From a virus: a DNA stretch of 38,631 nucleotides. The stretch covers positions 1-38,631 of IMG/VR virus record IMGVR_UViG_3300005841_000055. The stretch is one strand, 5' to 3'. Position numbers and translations under genes: made by a program. The notes beneath the pieces were generated by a model that was given only the letters and a program-made list of their open reading frames with translations, was not told where the DNA came from and made no database searches. Below, piece after piece: positions 998 through 21,997 of this stretch. The number at the start of each line of letters is the position of its first letter. Position 1 is the first letter of the stretch.

Positions 998-998
998 C

Positions 999-9046: not shown

Positions 9047-9261
9047 GCTTCCCCCTTGGGCACATCGACGTAGGGCATGGCGACGTCATCCGCCGTCAGC
9101 CCTTCGAAGATGGCCTGCTCGGTTTCGCCGTAGACGATGGCGATGGCGGGCATGGGGCCGAAGGCGTCCTTCACGATCGGCTGGCCCGCCACCAGTAGCT
9201 CCACGTTGCGCCGCGACAGGCCGATGATCAGCATGCCGGCATCGGTCTTGGCGATGATCAT
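9043..9261 (-). CDS. Small unknown phage protein
   Basis: The 72-residue protein reads MIIAKTDAGMLIIGLSRRNVELLV at the start (shown here only in part) and is mostly beta strand by appearance. It has a compact hydrophobic pattern and an acidic C-terminus. The ATG at 9261 shares its A with the stop of the repressor-like gene (TGATG), which favours it over the GTG one codon upstream. No family is recognised. It belongs to the chain of overlapping genes downstream of the helicase. Confidence 0.6.
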   Translation of the reverse strand: MIIAKTDAGMLIIGLSRRNVELLVAGQPIVKDAFGPMPAIAIVYGETEQAIFEGLTADDVAMPYVDVPKGEA

Positions 9262-9542
9262 CACACTCCCCAGAGATCCGGCCGCAGCAGCGCGGGCGAG
9301 ACTTTAAAGTACTCCGCGATCTGCCGCGCCCGCGGACCCGGCAGCAGGAAGTGGCGCGGTGCAGCCTCGGCCATGCGCTCCCAGCCGTACAGCGTCTGCG
9401 CGCGGATGCCGATCGCGATGGCAAGCTGCCGCTTGCTGCGCTCACCGAGCTTGTTCTCGATGAGCCAACTGAGCGGATGCTTGTTGGTGTTGCTGCCCCC
9501 CGGCATCTTGCGGGGGAGCTTCACGGGTTTTTGCGTTTTCAT
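9261..9542 (-). CDS. Cro/YdaS-like helix-turn-helix regulator
   Basis: The 93-residue basic protein has a helix-turn-helix at about 37-57 (KRQLAIAIGIRAQTLYGWER) and a C-terminal LRPDLWGV signature. This combination is typical of Cro/YdaS-like phage repressors, where the LRPD motif follows the DNA-binding helices. It is the only clear DNA-binding regulator in the genome, so it is a candidate reader of the CCTACA/TGTAGG operators or of the dispersed CTTTAAAG sites. That link is inference. Its start overlaps the helicase stop by 4 nt (ATGA). A CTTTAAAG element at 9302-9309 lies inside it and encodes Phe-Lys. Confidence 0.75.
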   Translation of the reverse strand: MKTQKPVKLPRKMPGGSNTNKHPLSWLIENKLGERSKRQLAIAIGIRAQTLYGWERMAEAAPRHFLLPGPRARQIAEYFKVSPALLRPDLWGV

Positions 9543-10945
9543 GCTTGTCCTTTCAGGACGTTGAGGATGGCTTGCTGGGCACTCGACTTCGCCTGCAGCG
9601 CGTCGAGGATGGCGCCGTCCACCGTGTCGCGAGCGACGATGTGGTGAATGACGACGGTCTTGGTCTGACCCTGCCGGTACACCCGGCGGTTCAGTTGGTC
9701 ATACTCTTCAAGGTTCCACGTGAGGCCGAACCATGCCACGCAGTGGCCGCCGGCCTGCAGGTTCAAGCCGTGCGCCACCGACGTCGGATGCACCAGCAGC
9801 ACCGGCAACTCGCCGCGGTTCCAGCGCGCCACGACGTCATCCGCGGCCTTCGCCGACACGCCGCCGCCGAGGTACGGGATGGCGGCATCGCCGAGGCGCG
9901 CACGGATGGCTTCCACTTCGTGCAGGAACGACACCGCGACCAGCAGCGGGGTGCCCTGCTGCTCTTCCACCAGATCCGCCAGCGCATCGAGCTTCGCTGT
10001 GTGGATCGCGACGGTCGCCTGCGTGCGCTCTTCAGTCTCGGCGTAGGCCGTGCCGTTCACCAGTTGGCGCAGCTTCATCAGGCACGCGGCCGCGTTGGCC
10101 GGGGCCATGGTGAGGCCGCCACCCGTGGCGAGGAACAGATCCTTGGCGAGCGTGTTGTACTGCGCGCGGGCCGGCGCCGGAAGCTCCACCTCGATGCGAT
10201 TGAAGATCAGCTTCGGCATGGTCAGGTGATCCTCGGCCTTGAGGCGCAGGGCCATGCCGTTGACGCGGGCGTAGACGCGATCGGCCGCATCCTTCTTCGG
10301 GTGCCATTTCTGGATCACGCGGCCGCCGCCGACGTGGACGGACTCGGGCATGCAGAACTCGCGGCGGAAGCGGGTGATGAACTTGCCCAGCGCAGCGCCC
10401 TCGTCGCAGATGTAGGCCTGCGAGAACAGATCCTCGATCGACTGCGGCGTCGGGGTGCCGGTCAGGATGTAGCGGCGGGCGAACTTGCCGAGGTGCTCAC
10501 GCAGTGCCTTGAAGCGCACGCTCGACGGGTTCTTGAAGCGGGTGGACTCGTCAACGACGAGCATCTCGGGGGCGCGCTCGCCGAGCAGCGACCACGTGGC
10601 GGCCTCGAACAGCCAAGCGACATTCTCGCAGTTCACCACGTAGATGTCAGCGTCGGCCTTCAACGCCGCTTCGCGCTGCTTGGCGCTGCCGAGCACCAGC
10701 GACACCTTGAGATGGGCGAAATCGGCCCACTTGGCGACCTCGGCCGGCCACACCAGCCGGGCCGGGCGCAGGGGAGCGATCACCAGCATGCGCTGCACCG
10801 CGCCGGCTTCCTTCATCACAAGGAAGGCGCCCAGCGACATCGAAGTCTTGCCGAGGCCCGGATCAAGCAGCAGGGCGCCGTTGGAACGGCCGGCGATAAG
10901 CTGGATGCCGCTGATCTGGTACGGGTGGGGCGTGTAGGGGATCAT
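9539..10945 (-). CDS. SNF2-like superfamily 2 helicase/ATPase
   Basis: This 468-residue protein is a DNA-dependent ATPase of the SNF2-type branch often encoded in phage replication modules. Motif I is DPGLGKT (K33), motif II is VDEST (SNF2 usually has DEAH), motif III is LTGTPTP and motif VI is NRRVYRQGQ. The NPSS that follows motif II is also SNF2-like. It probably remodels or unwinds DNA during replication or recombination. The length is complete for the two RecA-like lobes. A -24/-12 promoter lies 41 nt upstream of the ATG, with a leader containing TACCTACACC and CCCCACTAC. It heads a four-gene overlapping operon that ends at 8810. Confidence 0.9.
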   Translation of the reverse strand: MIPYTPHPYQISGIQLIAGRSNGALLLDPGLGKTSMSLGAFLVMKEAGAVQRMLVIAPLRPARLVWPAEVAKWADFAHLKVSLVLGSAKQREAALKADADIYVVNCENVAWLFEAATWSLLGERAPEMLVVDESTRFKNPSSVRFKALREHLGKFARRYILTGTPTPQSIEDLFSQAYICDEGAALGKFITRFRREFCMPESVHVGGGRVIQKWHPKKDAADRVYARVNGMALRLKAEDHLTMPKLIFNRIEVELPAPARAQYNTLAKDLFLATGGGLTMAPANAAACLMKLRQLVNGTAYAETEERTQATVAIHTAKLDALADLVEEQQGTPLLVAVSFLHEVEAIRARLGDAAIPYLGGGVSAKAADDVVARWNRGELPVLLVHPTSVAHGLNLQAGGHCVAWFGLTWNLEEYDQLNRRVYRQGQTKTVVIHHIVARDTVDGAILDALQAKSSAQQAILNVLKGQA

Positions 10946-10985: not shown

Positions 10986-11001
10986 AGCGATTATCGTGCC
11001 A
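10986..11001 (-). promoter_or_regulatory. Sigma54-like -24/-12 promoter for the helicase operon
   Basis: On the minus strand this reads TGGCACG-ATAA-TCGCT. The GG and GC dinucleotides are 12 bases apart, as required for sigma54, with a single deviation from TTGCW at position -14. The predicted start is near 10975, giving a leader of about 30 nt. The -24 box also encodes the last residues (Leu-Ala-Arg-stop) of the upstream gene at 10991-11215. Confidence 0.65.
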
Positions 11002-11215
11002 AGGAGCGGATGGTGTTCCAGCCGCGGGCCTGCCCGGCACTGCGGCGGGGCGCGACGCGCGGGCCGAGCGCGGGGTGGGCGACGATGAAGGCCGACACCG
11101 CGGCGCTGGCGTCGATCGAGGCCTGCAGGGTAACGGGCGTCGGGGTGGCGCGGGCGACATCGCGGGCGGCGGCTGCGGTGGTGATCAGGGCGTCGAGTTG
11201 GCTGCGGAGGTTCAT
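10991..11215 (-). CDS. Small unknown Ala-rich protein
   Basis: The 74-residue protein is Ala/Arg/Val-rich. Its N-terminal helix (LRSQLDALITTAAAARDVAR) and later helical part have no recognised domain. It has its own -24/-12 element 41 nt upstream and a leader ending GAGACAGACC-ATG, nearly identical to the leader of the helicase (GAGACAGAAC). Its last three codons and stop are formed by the -24 box of the helicase promoter. Function unknown. Confidence 0.6.
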   Translation of the reverse strand: MNLRSQLDALITTAAAARDVARATPTPVTLQASIDASAAVSAFIVAHPALGPRVAPRRSAGQARGWNTIRSLAR

Positions 11216-11255
11216 GGTCTGTCTCGGTTGTAAGGGGGTGCCTACAGTACTTTAA

Positions 11256-11271
11256 AGCGATTATCGTGCCA
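11256..11271 (-). promoter_or_regulatory. Sigma54-like promoter merged with a CTTTAAAG element
   Basis: The minus strand reads TGGCACG-ATAA-TCGCT followed directly by TTAAAG. The -12 box therefore overlaps the palindrome CTTTAAAG (11250-11257). The related promoters have GCTTTAGTA or GCTTTACTA at this place, which suggests the octamer and the promoter tail are related. A TGTAGG half-site follows near +1. Confidence 0.65.
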
Positions 11272-11309
11272 GCCGGGGTGCCGGGCCAGCCTTCATTGTA
11301 GGTGACGCC

Positions 11310-11633: not shown

Positions 11634-11976
11634 GGCGCGGCCCGGCCATCGAGCGGTGGGGGCGGGAAGGCACCGCCAGCAGGGCTGGCGGGCTCGCCAT
11701 GCGCTCCACGGCCTGCATGACTAGGGCCGTAGCTGCCAGCAGCGCCATGTCCTTCACGGCGGCCTTGTCGAGGTTCCCCAGCCGGGCGCGCTGGCGGGCC
11801 AGCAGCAGGGCGAACTCGGCCACCTGTTGCGCGGCCCCGCGGGCCACCAGCCGGCCGCTGCGCAGCGGCATCACCACGGTGGCGTCGCAGGCGTCGCAGC
11901 AGGGCTGGTCCGACAGCGGCCGAGCCGCGTTGCCGAGGCCGTCGAACTCGATCTTGCACAGGCTGCAGGGGGTCAT
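11623..11976 (-). CDS. Zinc-finger-like Cys-rich small protein
   Basis: The 117-residue protein starts with MTPCSLC and continues with CCDACD about 20 residues later. These two Cys pairs could bind one zinc ion. The rest is helical and Ala/Leu/Arg-rich (about 40-95) with a basic tail. Similar short Cys-motif proteins are common in phage early regions. No specific function is assigned. Its ATG overlaps the upstream stop (ATGA). Confidence 0.65.
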   Translation of the reverse strand: MTPCSLCKIEFDGLGNAARPLSDQPCCDACDATVVMPLRSGRLVARGAAQQVAEFALLLARQRARLGNLDKAAVKDMALLAATALVMQAVERMASPPALLAVPSRPHRSMAGPRRVS

Positions 11977-12203
11977 GGCTTCACCTCGGCCTGCGTCACC
12001 CGGCCCAGCATGATCAGGCGCTGGTAGAGCTTGCGCAGCTTGCCGGGTGACATCGAGCTTACGTACATGGCGGCCTCGGACGCGCGCCAGCCCTCCTTCA
12101 CGAACCAGCGCGACACGGCCTGTCCCTGCACGGCGGCCGGGGTGGCCTTGTAGGGGATGGCTACACGGGTGCCGTCAGCCTTGATCAGCAGTAACTGTCT
12201 CAC
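11973..12203 (-). CDS. Small unknown protein of the leftward operon
   Basis: The 76-residue protein starts at GTG 12203, preceded by AAGGAG and overlapping the upstream stop as GTGA. The frame is open further upstream to 12359, but that part lies inside the neighbouring gene. The sequence has a beta-like N-terminus (LLLIKADGTRVAIPY) and a helical second half (SRWFVKEGWRASEAAMYVSS, RKLYQRLIMLGRV). The latter resembles a small winged or plain helical DNA-binding fold, but no motif is decisive. Confidence 0.6.
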   Translation of the reverse strand: MRQLLLIKADGTRVAIPYKATPAAVQGQAVSRWFVKEGWRASEAAMYVSSMSPGKLRKLYQRLIMLGRVTQAEVKP

Positions 12204-12391
12204 GGTGTCTCCTTTTCCATCTTGGGGGTGAAATCGCGCCAGCCCAGCAGGAACTTGCGCGCGGTTGCTTCCGACAGGCCGGTGGCCTGCACGATGCGCT
12301 TGCGCGGCTTCCCGGTAGTCACTGCCTGACAGCGCAGGCAGTGCCCTGAGCGGCAGCACATGCGGGTGATGCGGTAGGTTGGCTCACTCAT
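12200..12391 (-). CDS. Small Cys-containing, helix-turn-helix-like protein
   Basis: The 63-residue basic protein contains CCRSGHCLRC at about 12-21, a likely zinc-binding cluster. It is followed by a possible helix-turn-helix (RIVQATGLSEATARKFLLGW). The start ATG at 12391 overlaps the upstream stop by 4 nt, so the longer upstream frame is not used. A DNA-binding role is plausible but rests only on this motif. Confidence 0.6.
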   Translation of the reverse strand: MSEPTYRITRMCCRSGHCLRCQAVTTGKPRKRIVQATGLSEATARKFLLGWRDFTPKMEKETP

Positions 12392-12726
12392 TTCAGCCAG
12401 CACTCGGGATCGGCACACGGCGGGCCGCCATGATTGCCGTCACACTTGTCTTGCGCCGCCTTGGGCGCGAGGGCGCGTTCGCAGCGGTCAGCTACCTCTT
12501 CCGCAAGGTCTGGTGCACCGTTGCCATACTGATAGCTGCGCAGTGCGTGGATAGCCGCTTGCAGCGCCGCCGCTACCTCTCCCTGCGCGGCCTCGGCGGG
12601 AGCGGCGTCGTACATGGCACGCCACATATGTGCAATAGGGTCTCCTCCTACATAAGTCGCAGTTGCCCCAGCCTTCTGCATTTCCGCTGTCGGCTCGCGC
12701 GGGCATAGCTTCGTGGGCGCGCTCAT
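12388..12726 (-). CDS. Small unknown phage protein
   Basis: The 112-residue protein starts at ATG 12726, overlapping the stop of the upstream gene (ATGA). The part REPTAEMQKAGATA...DPIAHMWRAMYDAAP is of a type seen in many phage early genes of unknown role. A helical middle and a C-terminal Cys/His-containing end (CDGNHGGPPCADPECWLK) follow. The end could bind zinc. No function is assigned. Confidence 0.65.
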   Translation of the reverse strand: MSAPTKLCPREPTAEMQKAGATATYVGGDPIAHMWRAMYDAAPAEAAQGEVAAALQAAIHALRSYQYGNGAPDLAEEVADRCERALAPKAAQDKCDGNHGGPPCADPECWLK

Positions 12727-12989
12727 TTCGTCACCCTTACGGCTTTTTTCGCCACCACGCAGACCAGCGTGCGCGACTCGTACCACTCGCGCCCGGCGAC
12801 CGACTCCATCAGGGCGCCGCGGGCGTCCAGTTCACTCTGGTACAGCCACACCGCTACGGTGGCGGTGTCGGCGTCGAGGACGCGAGCGCGGGCGTTGGTC
12901 AGCGCCGCGGTCTTGGTCACGAACGCCTGCCGCACCAGCTTGTTGCCGACGGCGTGTTCCGTCACGTGCAGTTGAGTTCCTTGTGCCAC
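12723..12989 (-). CDS. Small unknown protein, first gene of the VRR-NUC operon
   Basis: The 88-residue protein probably starts at GTG 12989. There GGAG is followed by the spacer CTTTAAA and then GTG, so the octamer forms the SD-to-start spacer. The sequence is beta-rich with a long helix (VRQAFVTKTAALTNARARVL) and a second strand pair (TVAVWLYQSEL). It is the first of six overlapping genes down to 11310. A leader element CCCCACTAC lies just upstream at 13002-13010. Confidence 0.6.
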   Translation of the reverse strand: MAQGTQLHVTEHAVGNKLVRQAFVTKTAALTNARARVLDADTATVAVWLYQSELDARGALMESVAGREWYESRTLVCVVAKKAVRVTK

Positions 12990-13007
12990 TTTAAAGCTCC
13001 GGTAGTG

Positions 13008-13025
13008 GGGCCGCTCGCGCGGCCC
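13008..13025 (-). terminator. GC-rich hairpin after the SprT-like gene
   Basis: The arms GGGCCGC and GCGGCCC enclose a GCGA tetraloop (minus strand), 9 nt after the stop of the SprT-like gene. There is no U-tract, so it may be a processing or pausing hairpin rather than a true intrinsic terminator. It separates the SprT-like gene from the VRR-NUC operon. Confidence 0.45.
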
Positions 13026-13033
13026 GGTGGGGG

Positions 13034-13678
13034 TCAGATGGTCTCGACAACCTTCTTCTTCTCGCGCTCGGTCTGCAGCATCATCTCCTGCTCGCAGGAA
13101 CCGCAGACCGGCCAGCCGTGCTCCTCGATCTTCTTCGCCGTCATGTAGCTGACGTTGCCGCAGCCGCACTCCAGCTTGTGCAGGCCGTGGCTGGCATTGC
13201 GCTTCTTCGCCACCAGCGCCACCTTGCCGTGCGGGTAGGCGCCAAGCTTGGCGAGGATCGCCGCCATCAGGGCGTGAGCGTCGGCGCGCTCGACCTTGGA
13301 GTGCTTGCCGCCCGTGTAGCCGACGGTCTTGCTGGCCTTGGTGAAGGCGGCGCCGTGACCGGACTTGCAGTCATCGACGGCGTGCAGCAGTTCATGCCCG
13401 AGCACGTCCAGCACTTCCAGCGGCTGGTCGAGCACCGGGGAGATCATCACCTCGTTGACGCCCGCGGCGCTGCGCGCACGGGGCCAGCACTCGCCGATGC
13501 GGCGCCGGGGCGAGCCGCCGCCGGGGAAGCCGCAGGCCATCTTGACGTCGGCCGGGACCACCACGCCGAGCTTGAGCCACGCCGCGCGGATGATGATGGT
13601 CGCCTGCGTCAGCCACTGCTCGCGGTGGAGCACCAGCTTCGGGTCGATCATGCCGCACAGGATTGCTTGCTTTTTCAT
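13034..13678 (-). CDS. SprT-like zinc metallopeptidase
   Basis: The 214-residue protein has the SprT/Spartan-type active site GHELLHAVDD (H95, E96, H99), a further His in SGHGAAF (H108), and a C-terminal zinc ribbon (CGCGNVSY...WPVCGSC). Cellular Spartan proteases cut DNA-protein crosslinks. Phage versions are common in early regions but their substrate is not established. A GTG three codons upstream (13687) is an alternative start, and neither start has a good SD. The gene is preceded by a long leader and a -24/-12 element at 13754-13769. Confidence 0.85.
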   Translation of the reverse strand: MKKQAILCGMIDPKLVLHREQWLTQATIIIRAAWLKLGVVVPADVKMACGFPGGGSPRRRIGECWPRARSAAGVNEVMISPVLDQPLEVLDVLGHELLHAVDDCKSGHGAAFTKASKTVGYTGGKHSKVERADAHALMAAILAKLGAYPHGKVALVAKKRNASHGLHKLECGCGNVSYMTAKKIEEHGWPVCGSCEQEMMLQTEREKKKVVETI

Positions 13679-13753
13679 TTGGGTCACTTTAGGTCAGTTT
13701 AGGGTAGGTGCAGGCGCCGGGTGTAATGTAGCAGGCGCCTGTACCTTTAGTAA

Positions 13754-13769
13754 AGCGAGAAGCGTGCCA
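13754..13769 (-). promoter_or_regulatory. Sigma54-like promoter for the SprT-like gene
   Basis: The minus strand reads TGGCACG-CTTC-TCGCT with correct GG-N10-GC spacing. The predicted start is near 13743, leaving a leader of about 65 nt. Its -24 edge overlaps the arm of the hairpin at 13766-13788. Downstream, CTTTACTAAAG forms a degenerate relative of the CTTTAAAG octamer. Confidence 0.6.
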
Positions 13770-13788
13770 ACGCTTTAAAGGCGTTGGC
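13766..13788 (-). other. Hairpin with TTTAAAG loop at a gene end
   Basis: Perfect 8-bp arms GCCAACGC and GCGTTGGC flank the 7-base loop TTTAAAG on the plus strand (CTTTAAA on the minus). The element includes the stop codon of the 74-residue membrane protein (CTT-TAA). The same architecture is repeated at 14967-14989. It may act as a transcript 3' end or as a protein-binding site. Confidence 0.55.
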
Positions 13789-13999
13789 TACAATCGGCAG
13801 CATCGGCCGCCGCATCGTCAGCTTCAGCCCATGAGGGGCCGTAGTCGGCGTCCTCAAAGGAGTAGCTACAGGGCAGGGGCGGCAGTGGGAGCGGCTGCGG
13901 GCGCTGCGAGTGGAGCAGCAGGATCACGATGATGGTCAGCAGCCCCACCACGGGGCCGCCGAGCCAGAACGCCACGGCGATGCAGAGGGCGTCGATCAT
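13775..13999 (-). CDS. Small membrane protein
   Basis: The 74-residue protein has a hydrophobic N-terminal half (IDALCIAVAFWLGG, VVGLLTIIVILLL; about 2-34) that can span the membrane once or twice. A Pro/Leu-rich linker and an acidic, Ala/Asp-rich C-terminus follow. The ATG at 13999 overlaps the stop of the DUF6011-like gene by 4 nt. Function unknown. The composition would also fit a membrane-anchored early protein acting on the host envelope. Confidence 0.6.
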   Translation of the reverse strand: MIDALCIAVAFWLGGPVVGLLTIIVILLLHSQRPQPLPLPPLPCSYSFEDADYGPSWAEADDAAADAADCSQRL

Positions 14000-14658
14000 T
14001 GAAATTTCCCGGCGCATACGGGGCCAATCCCCGCCTCGATCGAGGCCGGGTCCGTCAGGTCACGGCCGCAGGAGCAGCAGCGGCCCGAGAGCTTGCCGTG
14101 CTTCACGGCGGCCGCCAGCGGGTCCAGTTCGAACTCGGCCAGCAGGGCCACGATGGCATCCTTGTCGGCGCCGGCCTTGCCGTTCCAGACGAAGGCCTGC
14201 GCGTTGTCGAGCTTGCCGACGAGGCGATCGCTCCACACCAGCCAGCACATGCTGTCCTGATTCTTGCGGGAGATCTTGAGCGAGCCCGCGTGCAGGGTGG
14301 CGTGCTTCTGCATCACCTCGAACAGCTTCGGCACCGGGGTGCCGGCGGCGTAGGCGGGCTTCGCCGGGGCCGCCGGGGTGCCCGGCAGGGTTACCTGCGG
14401 CAGCGGCTTGCGCGGCAGCGACCACTCCACCAGCTTGCCGGCGAAGTCGCGCTGCTTGGCGCTGGCGTAGCCGCCGTTGTCCACCCGGCCAGCGATGTCG
14501 CGGCAGATGGCGCCCTTGCCCATGGCGAAGGCGTCGCGGCGGGCGTCGAAGCGCACCGCGGCGTCGCGCAGTTCGACCGCGCTCGGGCGCTCGCCGGCAA
14601 CGACGGCCAGCGCGGGGGTGATCGAGGGGGCGACGGCGACGGCGTTTTTCCAGTTCAT
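13996..14658 (-). CDS. DUF6011-like protein with C-terminal zinc motif
   Basis: The 220-residue protein ends with the signature CCSCGRDLTDPASIEAGIGP followed by VCAGKF, the hallmark of the DUF6011 group, where Cys residues probably bind zinc. The N-terminal half is Ala-rich and helical, with a Pro-rich hinge at about 105-120. Its role is unknown, though it is frequent in phage early regions. Two ATGs lie six bases apart. The second (14658) has GAAGGA at a proper distance and is chosen. A -24/-12 element lies upstream, and the leader carries TGTAGG-N5-CCTACA and CCCCACTAC. Confidence 0.75.
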   Translation of the reverse strand: MNWKNAVAVAPSITPALAVVAGERPSAVELRDAAVRFDARRDAFAMGKGAICRDIAGRVDNGGYASAKQRDFAGKLVEWSLPRKPLPQVTLPGTPAAPAKPAYAAGTPVPKLFEVMQKHATLHAGSLKISRKNQDSMCWLVWSDRLVGKLDNAQAFVWNGKAGADKDAIVALLAEFELDPLAAAVKHGKLSGRCCSCGRDLTDPASIEAGIGPVCAGKFQ

Positions 14659-14705
14659 GTTCATTCCTTCGTAGTGGGGGTGTAGGGGATGCCTACAACT
14701 ACTAA

Positions 14706-14721
14706 AGCACTTACCGTGCCA
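14706..14721 (-). promoter_or_regulatory. Sigma54-like promoter for the DUF6011-like gene
   Basis: The minus strand reads TGGCACG-GTAA-GTGCT, with correct 12-base GG to GC spacing and a deviation at -15. The -24 box encodes the Leu-Ala-Arg-stop end of the upstream gene, exactly as at the helicase promoter. The leader contains an inverted pair TGTAGG and CCTACA with a 5-base gap. Confidence 0.6.
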
Positions 14722-14935
14722 GCTTCTGCAGGTACTGCCACTCGCCCACCCACTCCGCGACGGTGAACGTCGTGAGGTGGTTGACGTAGACCGACGACGC
14801 CGGCCACGTGAGGGCGCCGCCGCCGACGAAGTAGAAGTAGCCATTGCCGCGGACTAGCTCCTGCTCGCCGCCCGCGGCCTTGATGGCCGCGTTGACGTTG
14901 TTCAGGGTGACGCGGGGGAGGGTGATCTTTGCCAT
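14711..14935 (-). CDS. Small conserved-type phage protein
   Basis: The 74-residue protein contains NGYFYFVGGGALTWPASSVY followed by a helix (FTVAEWVGEWQYLQKLAR). This pattern is familiar from many unannotated phage early proteins. The ATG at 14935 has GGAG 11 nt upstream. The frame is open to 14995, but that part spans a hairpin. No function is assigned. Confidence 0.65.
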   Translation of the reverse strand: MAKITLPRVTLNNVNAAIKAAGGEQELVRGNGYFYFVGGGALTWPASSVYVNHLTTFTVAEWVGEWQYLQKLAR

Positions 14936-14966
14936 GCTCGATGCTCCAGTTGAAAGGCAGTTGTTG

Positions 14967-14989
14967 GAGCCTGCTTTAAAGGCAGGCTC
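14967..14989 (-). other. Hairpin with TTTAAAG loop downstream of a gene
   Basis: Arms GAGCCTGC and GCAGGCTC (8 bp, perfect) flank the loop TTTAAAG, 12 nt after the stop of the gene at 15002-15370. Same design as 13766-13788. There is no U-tract. Confidence 0.55.
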
Positions 14990-15001
14990 GGGCAACGGTC
15001 T

Positions 15002-15370
15002 TTAGCCCTCGGCGCGCTCCAGCGCCAGATCCTCGTCCTGCCCGTAGGCGACGTAGGCGTCCGAGCCGTACACGGCACGCCCGGCAGCCCAGCGATCGAA
15101 CGCCACCGGGAGCTTGCCGCCCGCGACGCGCGCGGTCAGGGCCACGGCCAGCTTGATGGCCTTGGCTTCGGTGGGGCTATCAACGCCGTAACGCTCGGTG
15201 CCGACGAAGAACTGGCGGGTATCACCGAACGAGTTGGCGGCCACCACGAAGAAGGCGACGCCGAACTGCTCGCCGCGGGGGTTGCTCATGTCGGCGTTCT
15301 CGGGGTTGTAGCCGATGCCGACGACGTCCGAGGCGACGTAGAAGTAGGTGTTGGCGGCGGTGAAGTTCAT
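15002..15370 (-). CDS. Small unknown early protein
   Basis: The 122-residue protein looks compact and beta-rich at first (NTYFYVASDVVGIGYNPENA, QFGVAFFVVAANS), then has a helix (SPTEAKAIKLAVALTARVA) and an acidic C-terminus. No family is recognised. It has its own -24/-12 element 46 nt upstream of the ATG. The leader carries TGTAGG-N5-CCTACA and CCCCACTAC, nearly identical to the leader at 14658-14706, so the two genes should be co-regulated. Confidence 0.65.
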   Translation of the reverse strand: MNFTAANTYFYVASDVVGIGYNPENADMSNPRGEQFGVAFFVVAANSFGDTRQFFVGTERYGVDSPTEAKAIKLAVALTARVAGGKLPVAFDRWAAGRAVYGSDAYVAYGQDEDLALERAEG

Positions 15371-15416
15371 GTTCGTTCCTTGTAGTGGGGGTGTAGGGGT
15401 TACCTACAAGTACTAA

Positions 15417-15432
15417 AGCGAGAAGCGTGCCA
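15417..15432 (-). promoter_or_regulatory. Sigma54-like promoter for the 122-residue gene
   Basis: The minus strand reads TGGCACG-CTTC-TCGCT, identical in all 16 bases to the element at 13754-13769. The predicted start is near 15406. Confidence 0.65.
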
Positions 15433-15434
15433 AC

Positions 15435-15623
15435 CTACTCGATGATGCCGCCGATGTTGGCCGGGGCCACCCGCACCGGCCGCGGGAGCTTGTCCAGCTT
15501 GACCATCAGGTGCTTGCGGCCGATCGCCGCGACGGCGCCGAAGCGGGCGCCGCGCATCCACAGGTCCGTCGCCGGGTGCAGTTCCACCCGGTTGCCTACT
15601 TGGAAGTTGCGCAGTTCGAACAT
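15435..15623 (-). CDS. Small basic protein, SH3-like beta fold suspected
   Basis: The 62-residue protein (FELRNFQVGNRVELHPATDL at its start) looks like a small beta-barrel, with several KxV/RV strands. The chosen ATG at 15623 has GAGGAG 6 nt upstream, so the longer frame from 15650 is unlikely. It stops 2 nt before the promoter at 15417-15432. Immediately upstream of its SD is the 19-bp palindrome at 15647-15665, probably an operator. Function unknown. Confidence 0.6.
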   Translation of the reverse strand: MFELRNFQVGNRVELHPATDLWMRGARFGAVAAIGRKHLMVKLDKLPRPVRVAPANIGGIIE

Positions 15624-15646
15624 CTTGTACTCCTCAGTTGACGGCA

Positions 15647-15665
15647 TCACCTACACTGTAGGTGA
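15647..15665. promoter_or_regulatory. 19-bp operator-like palindrome
   Basis: TCACCTACACTGTAGGTGA has 9-bp perfect arms around one central base. The core half-site CCTACA/TGTAGG recurs at 16442-16457 and 17256-17268 and in several leaders, so it is probably the binding site of one regulator. The right arm and following bases (15657-15674) are repeated at 11297-11314. Confidence 0.65.
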
Positions 15666-15697
15666 CGCCTTACGTCACATTGTGCCGCCGTAAAGCG

Positions 15698-16375
15698 TCA
15701 CTTCTCGATGGCCGCCTGCCGGATGCGCTGCACCGGGTAGGCAAGTTCCTTGCCGCTGTCGTTCAGGTAGACCACGTGCGGCACCACGTTGCCGTTCAGG
15801 TGGGGGCCGCAGCCGCGGGCCATCCGGCTCTCGACGCGCAGGGCCACGCGCTCGGCGCCGAACAGCTTGAAGCGGGTGCCGGGGCCGATCACCTTGCGCG
15901 GCGCCTCGGCCACGCGGGCCACCAGCGCCTGCTTGCCCGTGATCTTGTCGGCGCGGGCAGTGATCGCGGCGCTGACGCGGGCGCATTCCTTGGCCTCGCT
16001 TTCGAGCGCGTGCTGCAGCGTCCGCACGGCGGCCTGCTGGTGCTCGGCCGGGGCGTCGGCGTAGTCCACCATCTCCCACACCGACTTGCCCATCACGCGT
16101 TCCATCTTGCCCGAGCGCGCCCGGCGCGGCAGCATCTCACCGCGCTCGACCGCCACTGCATCGGCGGCGCAGCTACGCGACCGCACCATGAGGCCGTGGG
16201 CGACCTTGTCGGCCTGCTCGCGGTCCTGCTCCAGCGGCAGGAACGCCGCGCCGGGGCAGACGCCGCGGAAGTAGTGGAACTGGACGTCATAGCCGTGCTT
16301 GGACAGCTTGCCCTCGGGCAGCGCCTGCAGCTTGCCGCAGACCTGACAGGTGCCGTTGTGAGTTGCCTTGATCAT
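15698..16375 (-). CDS. Unknown early protein with N-terminal Cys pair
   Basis: The 225-residue protein starts at ATG 16375 after AGGAG. A CQVCG motif at about 10-14 and another Cys near residue 39 could bind zinc. The middle is helical and charged (about 60-140, with VWEMVDYADAPAEHQQAAVR), and the C-terminal third is basic and beta-like (GPGTRFKLFGAERVALRVE). No function is assigned. It is the first gene of the leftward unit, driven by the promoter at 16420-16435, so it should be among the earliest leftward products. The region 16376-16518 upstream is the divergent control region. Confidence 0.65.
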   Translation of the reverse strand: MIKATHNGTCQVCGKLQALPEGKLSKHGYDVQFHYFRGVCPGAAFLPLEQDREQADKVAHGLMVRSRSCAADAVAVERGEMLPRRARSGKMERVMGKSVWEMVDYADAPAEHQQAAVRTLQHALESEAKECARVSAAITARADKITGKQALVARVAEAPRKVIGPGTRFKLFGAERVALRVESRMARGCGPHLNGNVVPHVVYLNDSGKELAYPVQRIRQAAIEK

Positions 16376-16419
16376 GGTGCTGACTCCTAATAGATATGGG
16401 GGGGATGCACTGCTACATA

Positions 16420-16435
16420 TGCAATGACCATGCCA
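16420..16435 (-). promoter_or_regulatory. Leftward sigma54-like promoter of the divergent region
   Basis: The minus strand reads TGGCATG-GTCA-TTGCA. Only one base (C to T at -21) departs from the consensus, and the -12 box is perfect. The predicted start is near 16409. It lies exactly as far from the palindrome 16442-16457 as its rightward partner. Confidence 0.7.
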
Positions 16436-16441
16436 GCCATT

Positions 16442-16457
16442 GCCTACATATGTAGGC
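16442..16457. promoter_or_regulatory. Central 16-bp palindromic operator between divergent promoters
   Basis: GCCTACATATGTAGGC is a perfect palindrome. Six bases separate it from the promoter on each side, so its centre is about 40.5 bp upstream of both predicted starts. It shares half-sites with 15647-15665 and 17256-17268. A regulator bound here could control both transcription units at once. Confidence 0.7.
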
Positions 16458-16463
16458 GTTAGC

Positions 16464-16479
16464 TGGCACGGTGCTTGCA
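16464..16479 (+). promoter_or_regulatory. Rightward sigma54 consensus promoter
   Basis: TGGCACG-GTGC-TTGCA matches the -24/-12 consensus at every defined position. The predicted start is near 16490. It drives the rightward unit beginning at 16519. Confidence 0.8.
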
Positions 16480-16518
16480 TGTATGTCTGGACCTCCACCG
16501 CATCTATTAGGACCGAAC

Positions 16519-16734
16519 ATGAAATTTCACCGTACCTCGCAAAGCTGGGCTGTTGGCGAAACCGTCAAGGTTGGCTTCCTGACCCTGCGCGTGCTCGCCA
16601 AGGTCGCCACGCCGGGCAACTACCTGCCCGACCAGTACGCCCTGACCAACAAGGATGGCAGCCGCTTCTATCGCTTCATCCCGCACAACGGCCTGACGCG
16701 CGTCGAGAACCTCCAGCAAGCGATGGAGTGGTAA
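16519..16734 (+). CDS. Small unknown early protein, first rightward gene
   Basis: The 71-residue protein is beta-rich at the start (TVKVGFLTLRVLAK) with a later RFYRFIPHNG segment and an acidic helix at the end. No family is recognised. The ATG at 16519 follows TAGGACCGAAC. The same leader end (CAGGACCGAAC) precedes the next gene, pointing to a duplicated promoter-leader cassette. The frame is open to 16471, but that start would lie inside the promoter. Confidence 0.65.
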   Translation: MKFHRTSQSWAVGETVKVGFLTLRVLAKVATPGNYLPDQYALTNKDGSRFYRFIPHNGLTRVENLQQAMEW

Positions 16735-16737
16735 CGC

Positions 16738-16753
16738 TGGCACGGGCCTTGCA
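16738..16753 (+). promoter_or_regulatory. Second rightward sigma54 consensus promoter
   Basis: TGGCACG-GGCC-TTGCA is again a perfect -24/-12 match, starting 3 nt after the stop of the previous gene. The predicted start is near 16764. The leader contains TACCTACCACCCCAC and AGGACCGAAC before the ATG at 16794. Confidence 0.8.
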
Positions 16754-16793
16754 TTGTAGTCTGTACCTACCACCCCACCTATCAGGACCGAAC

Positions 16794-17018
16794 ATGAACC
16801 AAGCTCACCTCACCAACGCGCCGGCCGGCGGCAAGCTCGTCGCGTGGCACACCTCCCTCGACCTCGCGGCCTACGTGATGGCCGACAAGTCCGAGGTGCT
16901 GATGATCAACGGCAAGCAGCACGCCTCGTTCGATCACCCGTCGCAGTACGTGATCTTCGTCTGCCGCATGACCCCCAAGGCCGCCGCCAAGTGGCTGGCG
17001 CCGTTCAACGTCAAGTAA
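16794..17018 (+). CDS. Small unknown early protein
   Basis: The 74-residue protein has a central part LAAYVMADKSEVLMINGKQH and a C-terminal VCRMTPKAAAKWLAPFNVK. It appears alpha/beta and soluble. No family is recognised. It has its own perfect -24/-12 promoter and AGGA before the ATG. The following gene starts 10 nt after its stop and is likely co-transcribed. Confidence 0.65.
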   Translation: MNQAHLTNAPAGGKLVAWHTSLDLAAYVMADKSEVLMINGKQHASFDHPSQYVIFVCRMTPKAAAKWLAPFNVK

Positions 17019-17028
17019 GGAGCACTCC

Positions 17029-17238
17029 ATGAAGACCCCCATGCACGTCGAGTTCGGGCGCATGCCCGTGGCCCTGATCAACGGCGTGTTCGCCGTCTAC
17101 GTGGTGCGGGGCGACAGCATCATCGCGTCCCGCACCGGCATCGACAGCGCCGCCCGCTGCGCCGAGTTGGCCCAGCAGTACGCCGACAACTACGGCGCCC
17201 CGCTCCGGCCCGAGGCGCGCTTCCTCGATCCGCTGTAA
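17029..17238 (+). CDS. Small unknown early protein
   Basis: The 69-residue protein (beta-like FGRMPVALINGVFAVYVVRG, then a helix SAARCAELAQQYADNYG) follows a strong AAGGAG SD. No family is recognised. It closes the first rightward group. Between 17239 and 17362 lie an operator-like palindrome and a hairpin containing CTTTAAAG. Confidence 0.65.
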   Translation: MKTPMHVEFGRMPVALINGVFAVYVVRGDSIIASRTGIDSAARCAELAQQYADNYGAPLRPEARFLDPL

Positions 17239-17255
17239 TTCTGCCCGAGCGGGCG

Positions 17256-17286
17256 CCTACAGTGTAGGGGCTGGCTTTAAAGCCCC
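17256..17286 (+). promoter_or_regulatory. Operator half-sites and CTTTAAAG hairpin before the replication genes
   Basis: CCTACA-G-TGTAGG (17256-17268) repeats the operator core. It runs into a hairpin whose arms GGGGCT and AGCCCC (17267-17272 and 17281-17286) enclose GGCTTTAA. The inner GGCTTTAAAGCC (17273-17284) is also palindromic. The element lies 18 nt after a stop and about 80 nt before the nuclease gene, so it could act as a regulated terminator or operator. Confidence 0.55.
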
Positions 17287-17362
17287 CCGCTTGCGCCACC
17301 CGGCCGGCGGGGTTTACCATCCGCCCTCACCTATTCACTGACCTAGATTGGAGTACCGGAAA

Positions 17363-18499
17363 ATGGCACTACATGCCGCATTCTCGCCCTCGGCGTCCAG
17401 CCGCTGGATCGCCTGCCCGGCATCGCATCTGCGCGCCGCGGCCCTCCCGCCTGCCCCTAGCTCCAGCTCCAGCTACGCCGAGCGCGGCACCCTGCTGCAC
17501 GAACTGGCTGCCTATGCCCTCGTCAACACACTGGCGACGATGGATGTCTACGCGGCGGCGCTGCCGGGCGTGAAGCTGGAGCCCGACGAGCGCGCGGCCA
17601 TCGCCACCTATGTCAAGTTCTGCCGCGATTTGCGCAAGGGTGCGACGGCGTGGGGGATCGAGACGCGCGTGGCCTACGATGCCGAACTGTTCGGCACCAT
17701 CGACTTCTGGGCCGTCAAGCACGGCACCCTGCACGTGGTGGACCTGAAGGGCGGCCGCGGCATCAAGGTGGACGTCATCGACAACACCCAGTTGCTGATT
17801 TACGCGATCATGCTGTCCAACCAGATTGCGATCGATAGGAAATCGGTCGCGGCCACCATCGACCACGTGGAACTGCACATCGTGCAGCCGCTGTTCGAAG
17901 GCGATGCGCCGATCCGTGGCGCCACCTACACCATGGCGCAGCTTGGCCTCTGGCGCGGCAAGATCTTCGATGCCATGGTGGCCGCCAAGAATCCCGCCGC
18001 CGCCTTCAACCCCGGCGAGCACTGCCGCTTCTGCCCAGTGAAGCCGGCCTGCCCGGCCCTGCTCGGGCTGGTGCAGCAGATGCCGTCGCCGCCGGTCTTC
18101 AACGGCCTCTCGGTGGAGAAGATCTCCGAGTGGCTGGCGAAGGCCGACACCATCGAGATGTGGATCGCGGCCCTGCGCGAGCATGCCCACGGCACCATCA
18201 ACTGCGGCACACCCATCCCCGGCTGGCGCCTGCAGGACAAGCGCGCGACGCGCAAGTGGACCGACGAGCGCGCCGTGCAATCCGAAGCCAAGGGCGCCGG
18301 CATCGTCGTCACCGCCCGCAAGCTCATGTCGCCGACGCAGGTCGAGAAGAAGTTCCGCGGCATCCCGGTGGTGCTGCAGCCGTTCGTGGATCAAACGCCC
18401 TCGGGCCAGAATCTGGTGCGCGACGAGTCCTACGTCGCCACCGATACCGAGCAGCCCGCGCTGGACAAGGCGCTGCTCAACCTGCAGTACCGTGTGTAA
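17363..18499 (+). CDS. DUF2800-like RecB/Cas4-type nuclease
   Basis: The 378-residue protein is of the DUF2800 type, a PD-(D/E)XK nuclease related to RecB and Cas4. Visible landmarks are SPSASSRWIACPAS at the N-terminus, GTLLHELAA, the active-site region GTIDFWAVKHGTLHVVDLKGG with the Asp and Asp-x-Lys pair, QLLIYA, and a Cys cluster CRFCPVKPACP that may hold an Fe-S cluster. In phages it occurs with a DNA polymerase and helicase and probably processes DNA ends for replication or recombination. The ATG at 17363 has GGAG 9 nt upstream. It overlaps no neighbour and heads the replication cassette. Confidence 0.85.
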   Translation: MALHAAFSPSASSRWIACPASHLRAAALPPAPSSSSSYAERGTLLHELAAYALVNTLATMDVYAAALPGVKLEPDERAAIATYVKFCRDLRKGATAWGIETRVAYDAELFGTIDFWAVKHGTLHVVDLKGGRGIKVDVIDNTQLLIYAIMLSNQIAIDRKSVAATIDHVELHIVQPLFEGDAPIRGATYTMAQLGLWRGKIFDAMVAAKNPAAAFNPGEHCRFCPVKPACPALLGLVQQMPSPPVFNGLSVEKISEWLAKADTIEMWIAALREHAHGTINCGTPIPGWRLQDKRATRKWTDERAVQSEAKGAGIVVTARKLMSPTQVEKKFRGIPVVLQPFVDQTPSGQNLVRDESYVATDTEQPALDKALLNLQYRV

Positions 18500-18535
18500 C
18501 CTGACCTAACCTAGACTTTAAAGGAGACACCTACC

Positions 18536-19213
18536 ATGAGTGCATTAGTACCGTTTGGCGGCAATGGTGCCGTGGCTGACCCGACCAAGCTCGCGGCCGC
18601 GCTGCAGAACGTTTCGCGGCAGGCTGCCCCGCAGGGCATGTTCCTGCGCATGGGCAAGGATGGCGTGTGGGTCATCGGGATCGAGGCCGAGCCCGTGGCC
18701 GAGGGCGCCGAGTTCGCCATCAACCCGGCCGGCTTCGGCCATGGCTGGATTGCGTGGGGCAAGTCCGAGCGCCTCGGCGAGTCCTTCGTGCCGCTGACCG
18801 ATCCGCTGCCGGCGACGCCGGCCACGCCCGAGGGCGCGGTGCGCGGCTGGGAGCAGCAGTTCGGCATGCATCTGCGCGAAGTCGGCACGGGTGCGGACCT
18901 GATCTTCCGCACCAGCAGCGTTGGCGGCAAGCGCGCGATCGGCGCGCTGGCGAAGGAAGTCGGTGCCCGCATGGCCGAGGGCGACGCGCGCAGCGTGGCG
19001 ATCGTCACCCTCGGTGCCGACTCCTACAAGCACAAGGAGTACGGCAAGATCTACGTGCCCGAGTTCGCCATCGAGCGGTGGGTCACGCCGGCCGACATCA
19101 CGGCCGACGTGCAGCCCGTGAAGGGCAAGGGAACGCCTACACCGCCGCCTACGGGCATCAAGAAGGCGGCCAAAGCCAAGGGCAAGCCGGCCACCAAACC
19201 GGCGCGCCGTTAA
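18536..19213 (+). CDS. Unknown replication-cassette protein, possible ssDNA-binding protein
   Basis: The 225-residue protein has a beta-rich body (MFLRMGKDGVWVIGIEAEPV, GFGHGWIAWGKSERLGESFV, SVAIVTLGADSYKHKEYGKI) and a flexible Lys/Ala/Pro tail (about 196-225). Its position between a DUF2800-like nuclease and a DNA polymerase is where phages of this kind keep a single-stranded DNA-binding protein, and the fold looks compatible. The tail is basic rather than acidic, which is unlike typical SSB. I do not recognise the family. The SD AAAGGAG is part of CTTTAAAGGAG, the dispersed octamer at 18516-18523. Confidence 0.65.
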   Translation: MSALVPFGGNGAVADPTKLAAALQNVSRQAAPQGMFLRMGKDGVWVIGIEAEPVAEGAEFAINPAGFGHGWIAWGKSERLGESFVPLTDPLPATPATPEGAVRGWEQQFGMHLREVGTGADLIFRTSSVGGKRAIGALAKEVGARMAEGDARSVAIVTLGADSYKHKEYGKIYVPEFAIERWVTPADITADVQPVKGKGTPTPPPTGIKKAAKAKGKPATKPARR

Positions 19214-19225
19214 AAAGGAGCAGCC

Positions 19226-19798
19226 ATGAGCAAAGCATATAAGCCTGCGGGTATACGGGTGAAGATAGTGGTCACCAAGGAAGCCATCGACCTAGCCATA
19301 CCAAGGGACTCCACGCATTGCATGATCGCGGACAGCGTCAGGAGCAGCTATCCGGCAGCGTCACGGGTGTCGGTGGATCTCGCCACCATTCGCTTCAGCG
19401 ACTCCGCCAAGGGGCTGCGCTATACCTTCCTCACCCCGCGTACCGCTCAGGTCGCCTTGGTGAACTACGATCGCGGGATTAAGCCCACCCCGTTTGATTT
19501 CGAGCTACGGGGTCCGCACATCACTCGGGCCGGAAGCCGCCACACACCTCGCGCCACGCTCACGGAAGCGCAGAAAAAGGGGTATGAAAAGCGCGGCACA
19601 AAGGGAGTGGAGAAGGCCCGTGACGTACTCCGTAAAACGGGCTTAAGGGCAAGCAACAAAGGCCCGCTGCAGTTCAACGACAAGATTCCTGATCGCGTGG
19701 GCGGCCAGACCCCGCCCCTGCAGCAAAGCAAGACCAGCAAGGGCAACATACCGTTCACGCGGCGCCGCGCCTACGGCCTGCGTGCCCTCGATATGTAG
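19226..19798 (+). CDS. Unknown basic protein, visibly lower GC than neighbours
   Basis: The 190-residue protein has a beta-rich N-terminal part (IRVKIVVTKEAIDLAIPRDS, STHCMIADSVRSSYPAASRV, YTFLTPRTAQVALVNYDRGI) and a very basic, probably disordered C-terminal half (KKGYEKRGTKGVEKARDVLR). No family is recognised. Codons such as ATA, AGG and TTT are more frequent than in flanking genes, which suggests recent acquisition. A strong AAAAAGGAG SD precedes it, and a classical intrinsic terminator (19818-19851) follows. It therefore looks like a cargo unit inserted at the end of a transcript. Confidence 0.7.
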   Translation: MSKAYKPAGIRVKIVVTKEAIDLAIPRDSTHCMIADSVRSSYPAASRVSVDLATIRFSDSAKGLRYTFLTPRTAQVALVNYDRGIKPTPFDFELRGPHITRAGSRHTPRATLTEAQKKGYEKRGTKGVEKARDVLRKTGLRASNKGPLQFNDKIPDRVGGQTPPLQQSKTSKGNIPFTRRRAYGLRALDM

Positions 19799-19817
19799 CC
19801 ATTGGCAGCACTCCTGT

Positions 19818-19851
19818 GCCCGCGCCGGCTGAGTTGGCGCGGGCCTTTTTT
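19818..19851 (+). terminator. Intrinsic terminator between unknown gene and DNA polymerase
   Basis: Arms GCCCGCGCC (19818-19826) and GGCGCGGGC (19836-19844) are perfect over 9 bp with a 9-base loop, followed by CTTTTTT. It lies 20 nt after a stop and is oriented rightward. A small dyad GACGCA-ATTC-TGCGTC follows at 19876-19891. I find no promoter for the polymerase between the two. Confidence 0.85.
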
Positions 19852-19915
19852 CTGGCGCACAATTCGAACGCTTTTGACGCAATTCTGCGTCGGCCCTTGA
19901 CGGCCTCCATCAACC

Positions 19916-21997
19916 ATGAAAGGCAGCACCGTGAAGAAGCATTTCTGGATCGACATCGAGACCCGCTCCCGCACCGACCTCGTCAAGCATGGCGTCTACC
20001 GCTACGCCGCTGACCCCTCCACCGAAGTCCTGATCATCTGCTACGCGCTCGGCCACGGCCCCATCAAGACATGGGTGCGCGGCGCCGCCATGCCCGCGGA
20101 CCTGATGAGCGTGCTGGCGAAGCCCGCCCCGCACGTGTACCTGACGGCGCACAACGCCGGCTTCGAGCGCCACGTGCTCACGCGCCTGTTCCCGGCCGTG
20201 CGTGATCCGCGCCGCTGGTACTGCACGGCCACGCAGGCCCGCGCCGTGGCGCTGGCCGGCTCGCTGGAGTCAGCGAGTCACATGCTGGGCACCCATGTGC
20301 GCAAGGATCGGCGCGGCGGCGAGTTGATCCGCCTGCTGTCGATGCCGCAGGCCGATGGCAGCTTCCTTGAGGATGCCGGCCTGATGGCCGAGTTCGCGCG
20401 CTACTGCGCGCAGGACGTCGAGGTGATGCGCGCCATGTCCACCAACATGCCACCGCTCACCGAGGAGGCGCTGGCACTGTACGTGGCGAACGAAACCGTG
20501 AACGATCGCGGCCTGCCGATCGACGTCGATCTGTGCGCGGCCGCGACCACGTACGCCGAGCAGGCCGCGGACGAGGCGGCACTGCGCATCCGCGCCGTGA
20601 CCCGTGATGCGATCAACAGCGCCCGCTCGGTCAAGCTGGCGCCATGGATTCACGCTCGCCTCGCGCAGCAGCACCAGCACCTGATGCACGTGACGCGCAC
20701 CAAAGTAGCGGACGTACAACTGCATGGCGCTGCCGGCGGGGGTGGTATGCGCGCGGGCGACGCGCGGGGCGCCGCCCATAACCTTGCACGGGCCGCTGGC
20801 GCCACCTCGCAGCAAGGCCTGTCGCTCGACTCGGGCGTACGCGCGGCCCTGCTGGAAGCGATCGACCTCTACCCTGATGACTTCACGGCCGAGGTGATCG
20901 AGGCCATCGCGGCCGCGGAGGATGCGTCGATGGCCTCGGTGTCCAAGTTCGCCACCATGCTCGATCGCGTCAGTGCCGACGGGCGCCTGCGGGGTGCCTT
21001 CGTGATGAACGGCGCCAGCCAGACCGGACGCTTCTCCTCGACCGGCGCGCAACTGCACAACTTCCCGCGTGCGGTGGCGGAAGATCCGGACGCACTGCGG
21101 GCCACCATCCTCAGGGGCGGCGACTTGGGCGACAGCGTGCTCAAGGCTTTAAAGTCCATGCTGCGGCCGGCGGTGCGTTCGCCCAAGGGACTGATCGTGC
21201 GGGCGGATTGGAACGCCGTCGAGGCGCGCGGCCTGCCGTGGCTGGCAGGGCCGAGCGCCACCGACTACCTTGCCATGTGGGCCGACGAGGCGCGTGATCC
21301 GTACATGGAGCAGGCACTGCTGGCGGGGCTCACGCTGCGGCAGGGCGGCAAGGTGGTGGTGCTGTCGCTGGGCTACGGCGGCGGCCCCAATGCACTCGGC
21401 CGCATGAGCGGCACCTACGGGGTGCAGATCGCCGACAAGCAGCAGGTAGTGTGGAACTGGCGCAATGCCAATGCATGGGCGCCGGCATGGTGGGCCGAGC
21501 TTGAAGCGGCTGCCTTCAGTGCCCTGCGCAAGCGTGACTTGGTGTGGCAGGGGGCGCAGCGCATCAGCTTCGCCGCAGATGCGTTCGGGCTTGCCATGCT
21601 GCTGCCATCCGGTCGCGTGCTCCGCTATCCCGATGCCAAGTTCGAATGGCAGGGCGAGCAGTCGCGCATCACCTACCAGAAGGCGGCATGGAAGCCCAAG
21701 GCCAACGTCAAGGAATGGCCGCGGGCCACCATGTGGCACGGCACCCTCGCGGAGAACGCGACGCAGGCCATGTGCGGGGATCTGCTGCGGCATGCATTGA
21801 TCGGCGCGGTGCAGGACGGACTCCCGATCATCGGCCATGTGCATGATGAGTTGATCGCGGAAGCGCCGAACACCAAGGCCGCCACGGTGCGGGATCTTGC
21901 ACGCGCGCTGCAGCAGCGTATGCTCGACTTACCCGTATGGGCGGCTGGCTTGCCGCTCGCTGTCGAGACTGACAGCGCCGCCTACTATCGCAAGTGA
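19916..21997 (+). CDS. Family A DNA polymerase with 3'-5' exonuclease domain
   Basis: This 693-residue replicative polymerase is related to DNA polymerase I but lacks the 5' nuclease. The exonuclease motif I is WIDIETRS (D13, E15). Polymerase motif A is VRADWNAVEARGLPWLAG with D431. Motif B is LRQGGKVVVLSLGYGG with K479 and Y487. Motif C is HVHDE with D644-E645. The usual DYSQIELR of motif A is replaced by DWNAVEAR, as in many phage enzymes. A GTG at 19931 with an AAAGG SD is an alternative start and would remove five residues without affecting the exonuclease motif. A CTTTAAAG element at 21147 is read as Ala-Leu(TTA)-Lys. Confidence 0.93.
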   Translation: MKGSTVKKHFWIDIETRSRTDLVKHGVYRYAADPSTEVLIICYALGHGPIKTWVRGAAMPADLMSVLAKPAPHVYLTAHNAGFERHVLTRLFPAVRDPRRWYCTATQARAVALAGSLESASHMLGTHVRKDRRGGELIRLLSMPQADGSFLEDAGLMAEFARYCAQDVEVMRAMSTNMPPLTEEALALYVANETVNDRGLPIDVDLCAAATTYAEQAADEAALRIRAVTRDAINSARSVKLAPWIHARLAQQHQHLMHVTRTKVADVQLHGAAGGGGMRAGDARGAAHNLARAAGATSQQGLSLDSGVRAALLEAIDLYPDDFTAEVIEAIAAAEDASMASVSKFATMLDRVSADGRLRGAFVMNGASQTGRFSSTGAQLHNFPRAVAEDPDALRATILRGGDLGDSVLKALKSMLRPAVRSPKGLIVRADWNAVEARGLPWLAGPSATDYLAMWADEARDPYMEQALLAGLTLRQGGKVVVLSLGYGGGPNALGRMSGTYGVQIADKQQVVWNWRNANAWAPAWWAELEAAAFSALRKRDLVWQGAQRISFAADAFGLAMLLPSGRVLRYPDAKFEWQGEQSRITYQKAAWKPKANVKEWPRATMWHGTLAENATQAMCGDLLRHALIGAVQDGLPIIGHVHDELIAEAPNTKAATVRDLARALQQRMLDLPVWAAGLPLAVETDSAAYYRK

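Follow-up and report, generated by a model that had tools for sequence, protein, structure and literature searches.

The sigma54 form of bacterial RNA polymerase initiates no transcription until a signal reaches an activator that uses ATP. To our knowledge, viruses have rarely been found to make use of this host factor, and a partial literature search turned up no report of sigma54 promoters for early phage genes or of sigma54 arrays in phages. The bacterial sigma54 (-24/-12) promoter consensus has been given in one published form as TGGCA(T/C)(G/A)N4TTGCA (PMC11704786) and in another as the halves tGGcacg and tTGCt (PMC4641369). Pseudomonas phage YuA, which a preliminary description of the locus reported here had cited as precedent, serves as one in part: its record (AM749441) annotates three regions among the structural genes as high-activity promoters with a -24/-12 consensus, but no site comparable to ours was found in its bases 1-50000, and the annotated stretches are without TGGCAY-N7-GC on the annotated strand. 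Moreover, whereas the YuA promoters lie among structural genes, the eight elements described below all lie outside the structural block. Elsewhere in YuA, genes are accompanied by a 28-nt repeat that the record labels a sigma70 promoter dependent on a phage cofactor; such repeats (beginning CTTTACTTCTTCGG; locus L206) stand at 7722, 10500, 22639, 29058 and 31098, before genes outside the structural block. The YuA relative PAE1 shares with the present phage a distant homolog of its first left-arm gene, and in PAE1 a 28-nt repeat of the YuA type precedes that homolog.

The DNA analysed here (hereafter the window) is the 38,631-base record of a phage; its ends are identical over 60 bp and its GC content is 66.8%. 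Its plus strand encodes a DNA polymerase, a primase/helicase, a terminase, a portal and a major head protein, and a minus-strand block holds mostly small genes, with a helicase of PHROG 62 (9539..10945, minus strand) near the end of this putatively sigma54-led left arm. The portal has only distant relatives in named phages (Mx8, Mx9, BUCT555 and others), and a host search by alignment of the head protein and helicase against genome contigs found no relative. The arms diverge between the first left-arm gene (15698..16375, minus strand; 225 aa, PHROG 17208, function not assigned) and the first right-arm gene (16519..16734, plus strand; 71 aa, no family). The preliminary description had placed here the divergence point of two transcription units covering the whole genome; the gene layout agrees with the divergence, but units of that extent are less certain, given an intrinsic-terminator-like site at 19818-19844.

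Two divergent sigma54-type elements occupy the space between the arms, and their sequences and spacing are exactly as first described. The leftward element, P_L, reads TGGCATGGTCATTGCA on the minus strand from 16435 to 16420, and the rightward element, P_R1, reads TGGCACGGTGCTTGCA on the plus strand at 16464-16479; six bases separate each from the 16-bp palindrome GCCTACATATGTAGGC (16442..16457), whose centre at 16449.5 is 40.5 bases from both predicted starts, near 16409 and 16490 respectively. Measured from the T of TGG, P_L stands 60 nt from the ATG of 15698-16375 and P_R1 55 nt from the ATG at 16519. Six more elements were found beyond these two. P_R2 (TGGCACGGGCCTTGCA, 16738..16753, plus strand) lies 56 nt from the ATG at 16794, and the other five point leftward: TGGCACGCTTCTCGCT at 15417..15432 (62 nt to the ATG of 15002-15370), TGGCACGGTAAGTGCT at 14706..14721 (63 nt to the ATG of 13996-14658), a second TGGCACGCTTCTCGCT at 13754..13769 (91 nt to the SprT-like gene 13034-13678), and TGGCACGATAATCGCT twice, at 11256..11271 and 10986..11001 (each 56 nt to an ATG, of 10991-11215 and of the helicase gene 9539-10945). 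All eight, six leftward and two rightward, are thus directed into a gene start at a distance of 55-91 nt, and all lie within 10986-16753.

The pattern TGGCAYR-N6-GCW occurs eight times in the window, a count reached by none of 1000 dinucleotide shuffles (mean 1.86), and the strict TGGCAYR-N4-TTGCA three times against 0.03 expected. The looser YTGGCAY-N7-GC is less discriminating (10 copies, equalled by 11 of 1000 shuffles). When the spacer of TGGCAY-Nk-GCW is varied from 3 to 12, k=7 yields nine matches and every other length between one and six. A weight matrix was also built from 27 ChIP-chip-bound Salmonella sigma54 sites, namely the intergenic sites printed in Table 3 of PMC3844500. Over the whole window its eight best matches are the eight elements: P_L leads at 19.8, followed by 14721 (19.3), 11271 and 11001 (19.1 each), P_R2 (18.7), P_R1 (18.5) and 15432 and 13769 (17.9 each), scores which resemble those of the experimentally bound Salmonella sites (median of the training sites 19.5). 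The ninth match (TGTCACGCTCCTTGCATG, 984-999, minus strand), at the end of a plus-strand open reading frame, scores 15.3 and was left out of the set of eight; the tenth scores 6.9. At a threshold of 17.88 the matrix found no site in 60 shuffles of the window, and only nine in 1.83 Mb from 154 loci fetched by protein similarity outside the clade, never two in one locus. Three relatives of the window (G002, G003 and G004; IMG/VR contigs 3300006237_000041, 3300006358_000035 and 3300025934_000061) have two sites each at this threshold, their other elements scoring lower (e.g., 16.5, 17.6); none reaches it in the L129 contig introduced below, in G005, G006, G007, G008 or BUCT555, in bases 1-50000 of YuA, or in 60 kb of record G001.

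These three relatives have the gene order of the window in common with it, and at all 14 covered orthologous promoters among the four phages the element is intact; the ortholog of P_L was found in G002 and G003. The comparison comprises 18 sites (8 + 4 + 4 + 2), matches at 5118 in G004, 23017 in G005 and 35413 in G007 having been dropped. Between orthologs no difference occurs at TGGCA or GC, against differences in up to 8 of 10 comparisons at spacer positions; the search pattern for the relatives' sites itself fixed TGGCA and GC, which makes the zero partly built in, and presence at 14 of 14 orthologous places is less affected by that bias. Three positions outside the search pattern are also constrained: the base preceding TGG is C or T in 18/18 sites, position 12 is T in 15/18, and position 17, after GCW, is T in 18/18. 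The sigma54-type recognition proposed in the preliminary description is thus strongly supported by a matrix of independent ChIP sites and by conservation in relatives.

Compared with bacterial sigma54 promoters, the three strict window copies agree at all specified positions, and all eight elements have the GG-N10-GC spacing with A or T after GC. They differ in being phage-borne, in supplying, with eight copies, the chief promoter class that can be recognised in one arm, and in that no activator gene or enhancer was found for them. No protein of the window matched the Sigma54_DBD family, the sigma54 DNA-binding domain (the controls worked), or the Sigma54_activat family (all 14 controls matched); RNA polymerase family PF00940 gave no match, but as its controls also went unmatched this carries no weight. 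The sequence match, the copy number, the placement before genes and the conservation of the sigma54-type elements are matters of observation. As to their meaning, we think it probable that P_L and P_R1 are two of eight -24/-12 promoters read by host RNA polymerase with host sigma54 (RpoN). The host holoenzyme would bind the elements, start about 12 nt after the GC, and transcribe the left-arm genes (the helicase, a VRR-NUC nuclease, the SprT-like protein and small unknowns) together with two small right-arm genes. Since neither a sigma54 DNA-binding domain nor an activator was found in the phage, activation may, more tentatively, fall to an enhancer-binding protein of the host. The elements stand before early-type genes, which suggests that the phage leaves the expression of its early genes to a switch by which the host answers stress and nutrition; its programme would then depend on signals of the host (nitrogen, membrane stress or motility), unless the phage supplies some bypass.

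A sister phage differs in this respect. The L129/L087 contig (IMGVR_UViG_3300045284_000246) has the same gene order and retains both the palindrome and the TGTAGG..CCTAC repeats, but lacks the sigma54 element at 3/3 comparable promoters. Upstream of its first left gene stands TTGACT-N17-TAAGAT (9/12 matches to the sigma70 hexamers) and upstream of its SprT-like gene TTGACA-N18-TACAAT (11/12); at the third locus no hexamer pair of 8/12 was found. Sigma70-like hexamers of 8-9/12 also occur at P_L of G002 and G003, where they overlap the sigma54 element, and at the SprT promoter of all four element-bearing phages. In the window the latter (TTTACT-N18-TACATT, 8/12; 13725..13754, minus strand) abuts the 13769 element, and at this promoter the spacing of 18 is kept in 5/5 phages. 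P_L of the window itself has no hexamer pair of at least 8/12 and does not class as a sigma70 promoter, and across 10800-19950 sigma70 consensus matches number one, against 1.1 expected. A pairing of the TTTA after the element with a downstream TACA as -35 and -10 was rejected by eye, the spacing running from about 11 to 19.

The hexamers at P_L of G002 and G003 and at the SprT promoters indicate that sigma70 may contribute to transcription there. They also lend some weight to an unlikely alternative, that TGGCACG-N5-NGC is the site of a transcription activator aiding weak sigma70 promoters and no sigma54 promoter at all: good hexamers are present at two of the three loci of the element-less L129 contig and weaker ones where the element is present, and the spacing at the SprT promoter is invariant. 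The geometry is against it, however. At P_L of G002 and G003 the element falls inside the -35/-10 spacer and at the SprT promoter it lies upstream of the -35, so that a single activator could not work in the same way at the two places; furthermore, 6 of the 14 element-bearing orthologous promoters lack a sigma70-like pair of at least 8/12, and the motif agrees with the sigma54 consensus wherever the latter specifies a base. The sigma70 hexamers of L129 and the overlapping kinds in G002 and G003 fit promoters able to change sigma class, and the window and L129 form a natural pair in which corresponding promoters can be compared in a sigma54 and a sigma70 version. It is less probable still that the copies serve to titrate host sigma54 off host genes rather than as promoters. 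The phage-shock response would be one such target, the psp operon being given as sigma54-dependent in the account from which the matrix sites were drawn (PMC3844500), and titration might be read from the copy number and from clusters of up to 27 motifs, some of them in tandem with a period of 26-28 bp, in viral contigs unrelated to this phage; yet the copies of the window are single and directed into gene starts 55-91 nt away, and eight per genome seem few. Chance resemblance, which a GC-rich genome and single long-pattern matches in many viral contigs might be thought to favour, has a vanishingly small probability: it is contradicted by the shuffles, by ortholog conservation and by the matrix scans of the window and the 154 loci, and for the set of eight it is ruled out.

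The relation of the palindrome to these putative sigma54 promoters is a separate matter. GCCTACATATGTAGGC occurs exactly once in the window, and matches with up to three mismatches are expected 0.08 times (one was present in 7/100 shuffles); its CCTACA/TGTAGG half-sites number 32 in the window against 6.5 expected. The window has CCTACA-N1or2-TGTAGG palindromes at 16443, 15650 and 17256, and G003 has two. The second (CCTACACTGTAGG, 15650..15662) lies upstream of 15435-15623 and the third (CCTACAGTGTAGG, 17256..17268) upstream of 17348-18499, neither adjoined by a sigma54 element. In the L129 contig CCTACCATGTAGG takes the corresponding position, and in the window, G003 and L129 alike the palindrome stands 7 nt before the leftward promoter, whichever its sigma class, while G002 is without it. 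Because this distance is kept across sigma classes, the palindrome is probably an operator that serves mainly the leftward promoter, for a repressor or an activator of either phage or host origin.

The control model first built on these elements is supported only in part, joint control of both arms by a single regulator through the palindrome being its weaker point. P_R1 is present only in the window and in the near-identical copy of this phage within G001, and has no counterpart in G002, G003 or the L129 contig; palindromes at 15650 and 17256 occur without a sigma54 element; and the right-arm replication block, from 17348, seems to have a promoter of its own, a weak sigma70-like TTGCGC-N18-TACCAT (17291..17320, plus strand) noted by eye below the scan threshold before the DUF2800/PD-(D/E)XK gene, with similar sequences in G002 and G003. 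The flanks of the 16738 element are 79-90% like those of 16464 (families D14 and D17), the leaders of the two are near-repeats, and ATCTATTAGGA or a similar sequence recurs in the leftward leader. The three promoters around the divergence point look like duplicates, and P_R1 like an inverted duplication of the leftward promoter, in which case the exact symmetry would be a local event. That symmetry, with the palindrome at -40.5 from both predicted starts, speaks for an enhancer at which a sigma54 activator drives both divergent promoters at once, and so does the conserved position of the palindrome in G003 and L129, 7 nt ahead of the promoter that points leftward. We nevertheless regard this role as doubtful, as in L129 the palindrome lies beside a sigma70-type promoter, at 15650 and 17256 it adjoins no sigma54 element, G002 has the promoter without the palindrome, and 6/8 window promoters have no such palindrome adjoining; enhancers, besides, usually lie farther upstream.

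The candidate regulator is a 93-aa helix-turn-helix protein (9261..9542, minus strand), conserved at 78-85% in relatives. Its helix-turn-helix matches fall below threshold, its AlphaFold model has a mean pLDDT of 76, and Foldseek returned weak matches to XRE/lambda-type repressors (best E 0.19), which makes an XRE/lambda-repressor fold plausible. Inverted repeats of the kind TGTAGG-N5-CCTACA span the predicted starts of two leftward promoters, at 15392..15408 (the 15432 promoter) and 14681..14697 (the 14721 promoter); the former is a possible operator or 5' hairpin. Tested over 18 sites, 5'-end RNA hairpins gave a mean z of -1.2; they were strong at all four SprT promoters, where z ranged from -2.7 to -4.8, and G004 had one further strong site (-2.7). 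The SprT promoter of the window (13700-13754, minus strand) has a long hairpin, CAGGCGCC..GGCGCCTG, at its predicted start; the hairpin of G002 is CAGGCGGGG..CCCCGCCTG, and its changes relative to the window are paired.

Motifs of this type are also found in viral contigs outside this clade. In two IMG/VR pattern scans at least 225 loci matched, and among the matches listed (225 loci) there were 491 motifs of the right spacing, about 225 of them the query matches themselves, against 61-89 for each of six wrong spacings. Among the matches listed, clusters occur in G010 with 27 motifs, in G009 (the contig that holds L220) with 24, and in L353 and L363 with nine each; these contigs were chosen by motif, so no frequency is derivable. 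Tandem, back-to-back and face-to-face arrays were seen in L220 (6500-8600), L314, L353 (8236-8447), L363, L381, L344, L402 and L246, whose contigs showed no relation to the window; where copies are in tandem the period is in places 26-28 bp, and about 7-10 bp separate the members of back-to-back pairs. Some arrays are too tight for one polymerase per site, and the motif can accordingly have another use. In the homologous arrays of L353 and L363, 0/80 core positions differ against 17/80 other motif positions, over ten site rows, one of them doubled by an alignment gap, with sites defined by the pattern in either sequence. Applied to 13 cluster-type records, the Salmonella matrix found at least one site of at least 17.88 in 12 and at least four in 10; the exception, G018, had none in the 20 kb examined. 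Phage-type genes are present in at least L220 and L246, and no sigma54 or activator domains were found in 13 records of this kind. As a tentative generalization, which we hold to be possible though on balance improbable, several unrelated phage lineages may independently have entrusted an early regulatory block to host sigma54, with anything from single promoters to dense arrays of up to two dozen sites; the timing of infection would then follow a host enhancer-binding protein, or else sigma54 would be titrated, and sister phages could convert corresponding promoters from one of the two sigma classes to the other.

Two further observations concern the records themselves. G001 (IMGVR_UViG_3300025934_000001; 109 kb) contains this phage at about 70711-109416 together with about 70 kb of other sequence (bases 1-70711). 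Window 12411-12610, for which named phages gave no match, shares 98.5% identity with the opening 200 bases of that record, and because these roughly 200 bases recur at the record start, G001 looks like a misassembly or a recombination of two phages. Finally, the palindrome CTTTAAAG occurs 21 times in the window against 0.04 expected in a genome of 67% GC, both within and between genes, at 3055, 4809, 9302, 11250, 12989, 13773, 14974, 17275, 18516, 21147, 24805, 24973, 26197, 27356, 28032, 29542, 29975, 32901, 34635, 36203 and 37390. It is absent from G005 and from the 60 kb of G001 examined, and it numbers 16 in G002, 20 in G003 and 14 in G004, its position being kept in 7/11, 13/18 and 6/13 aligned cases, respectively.
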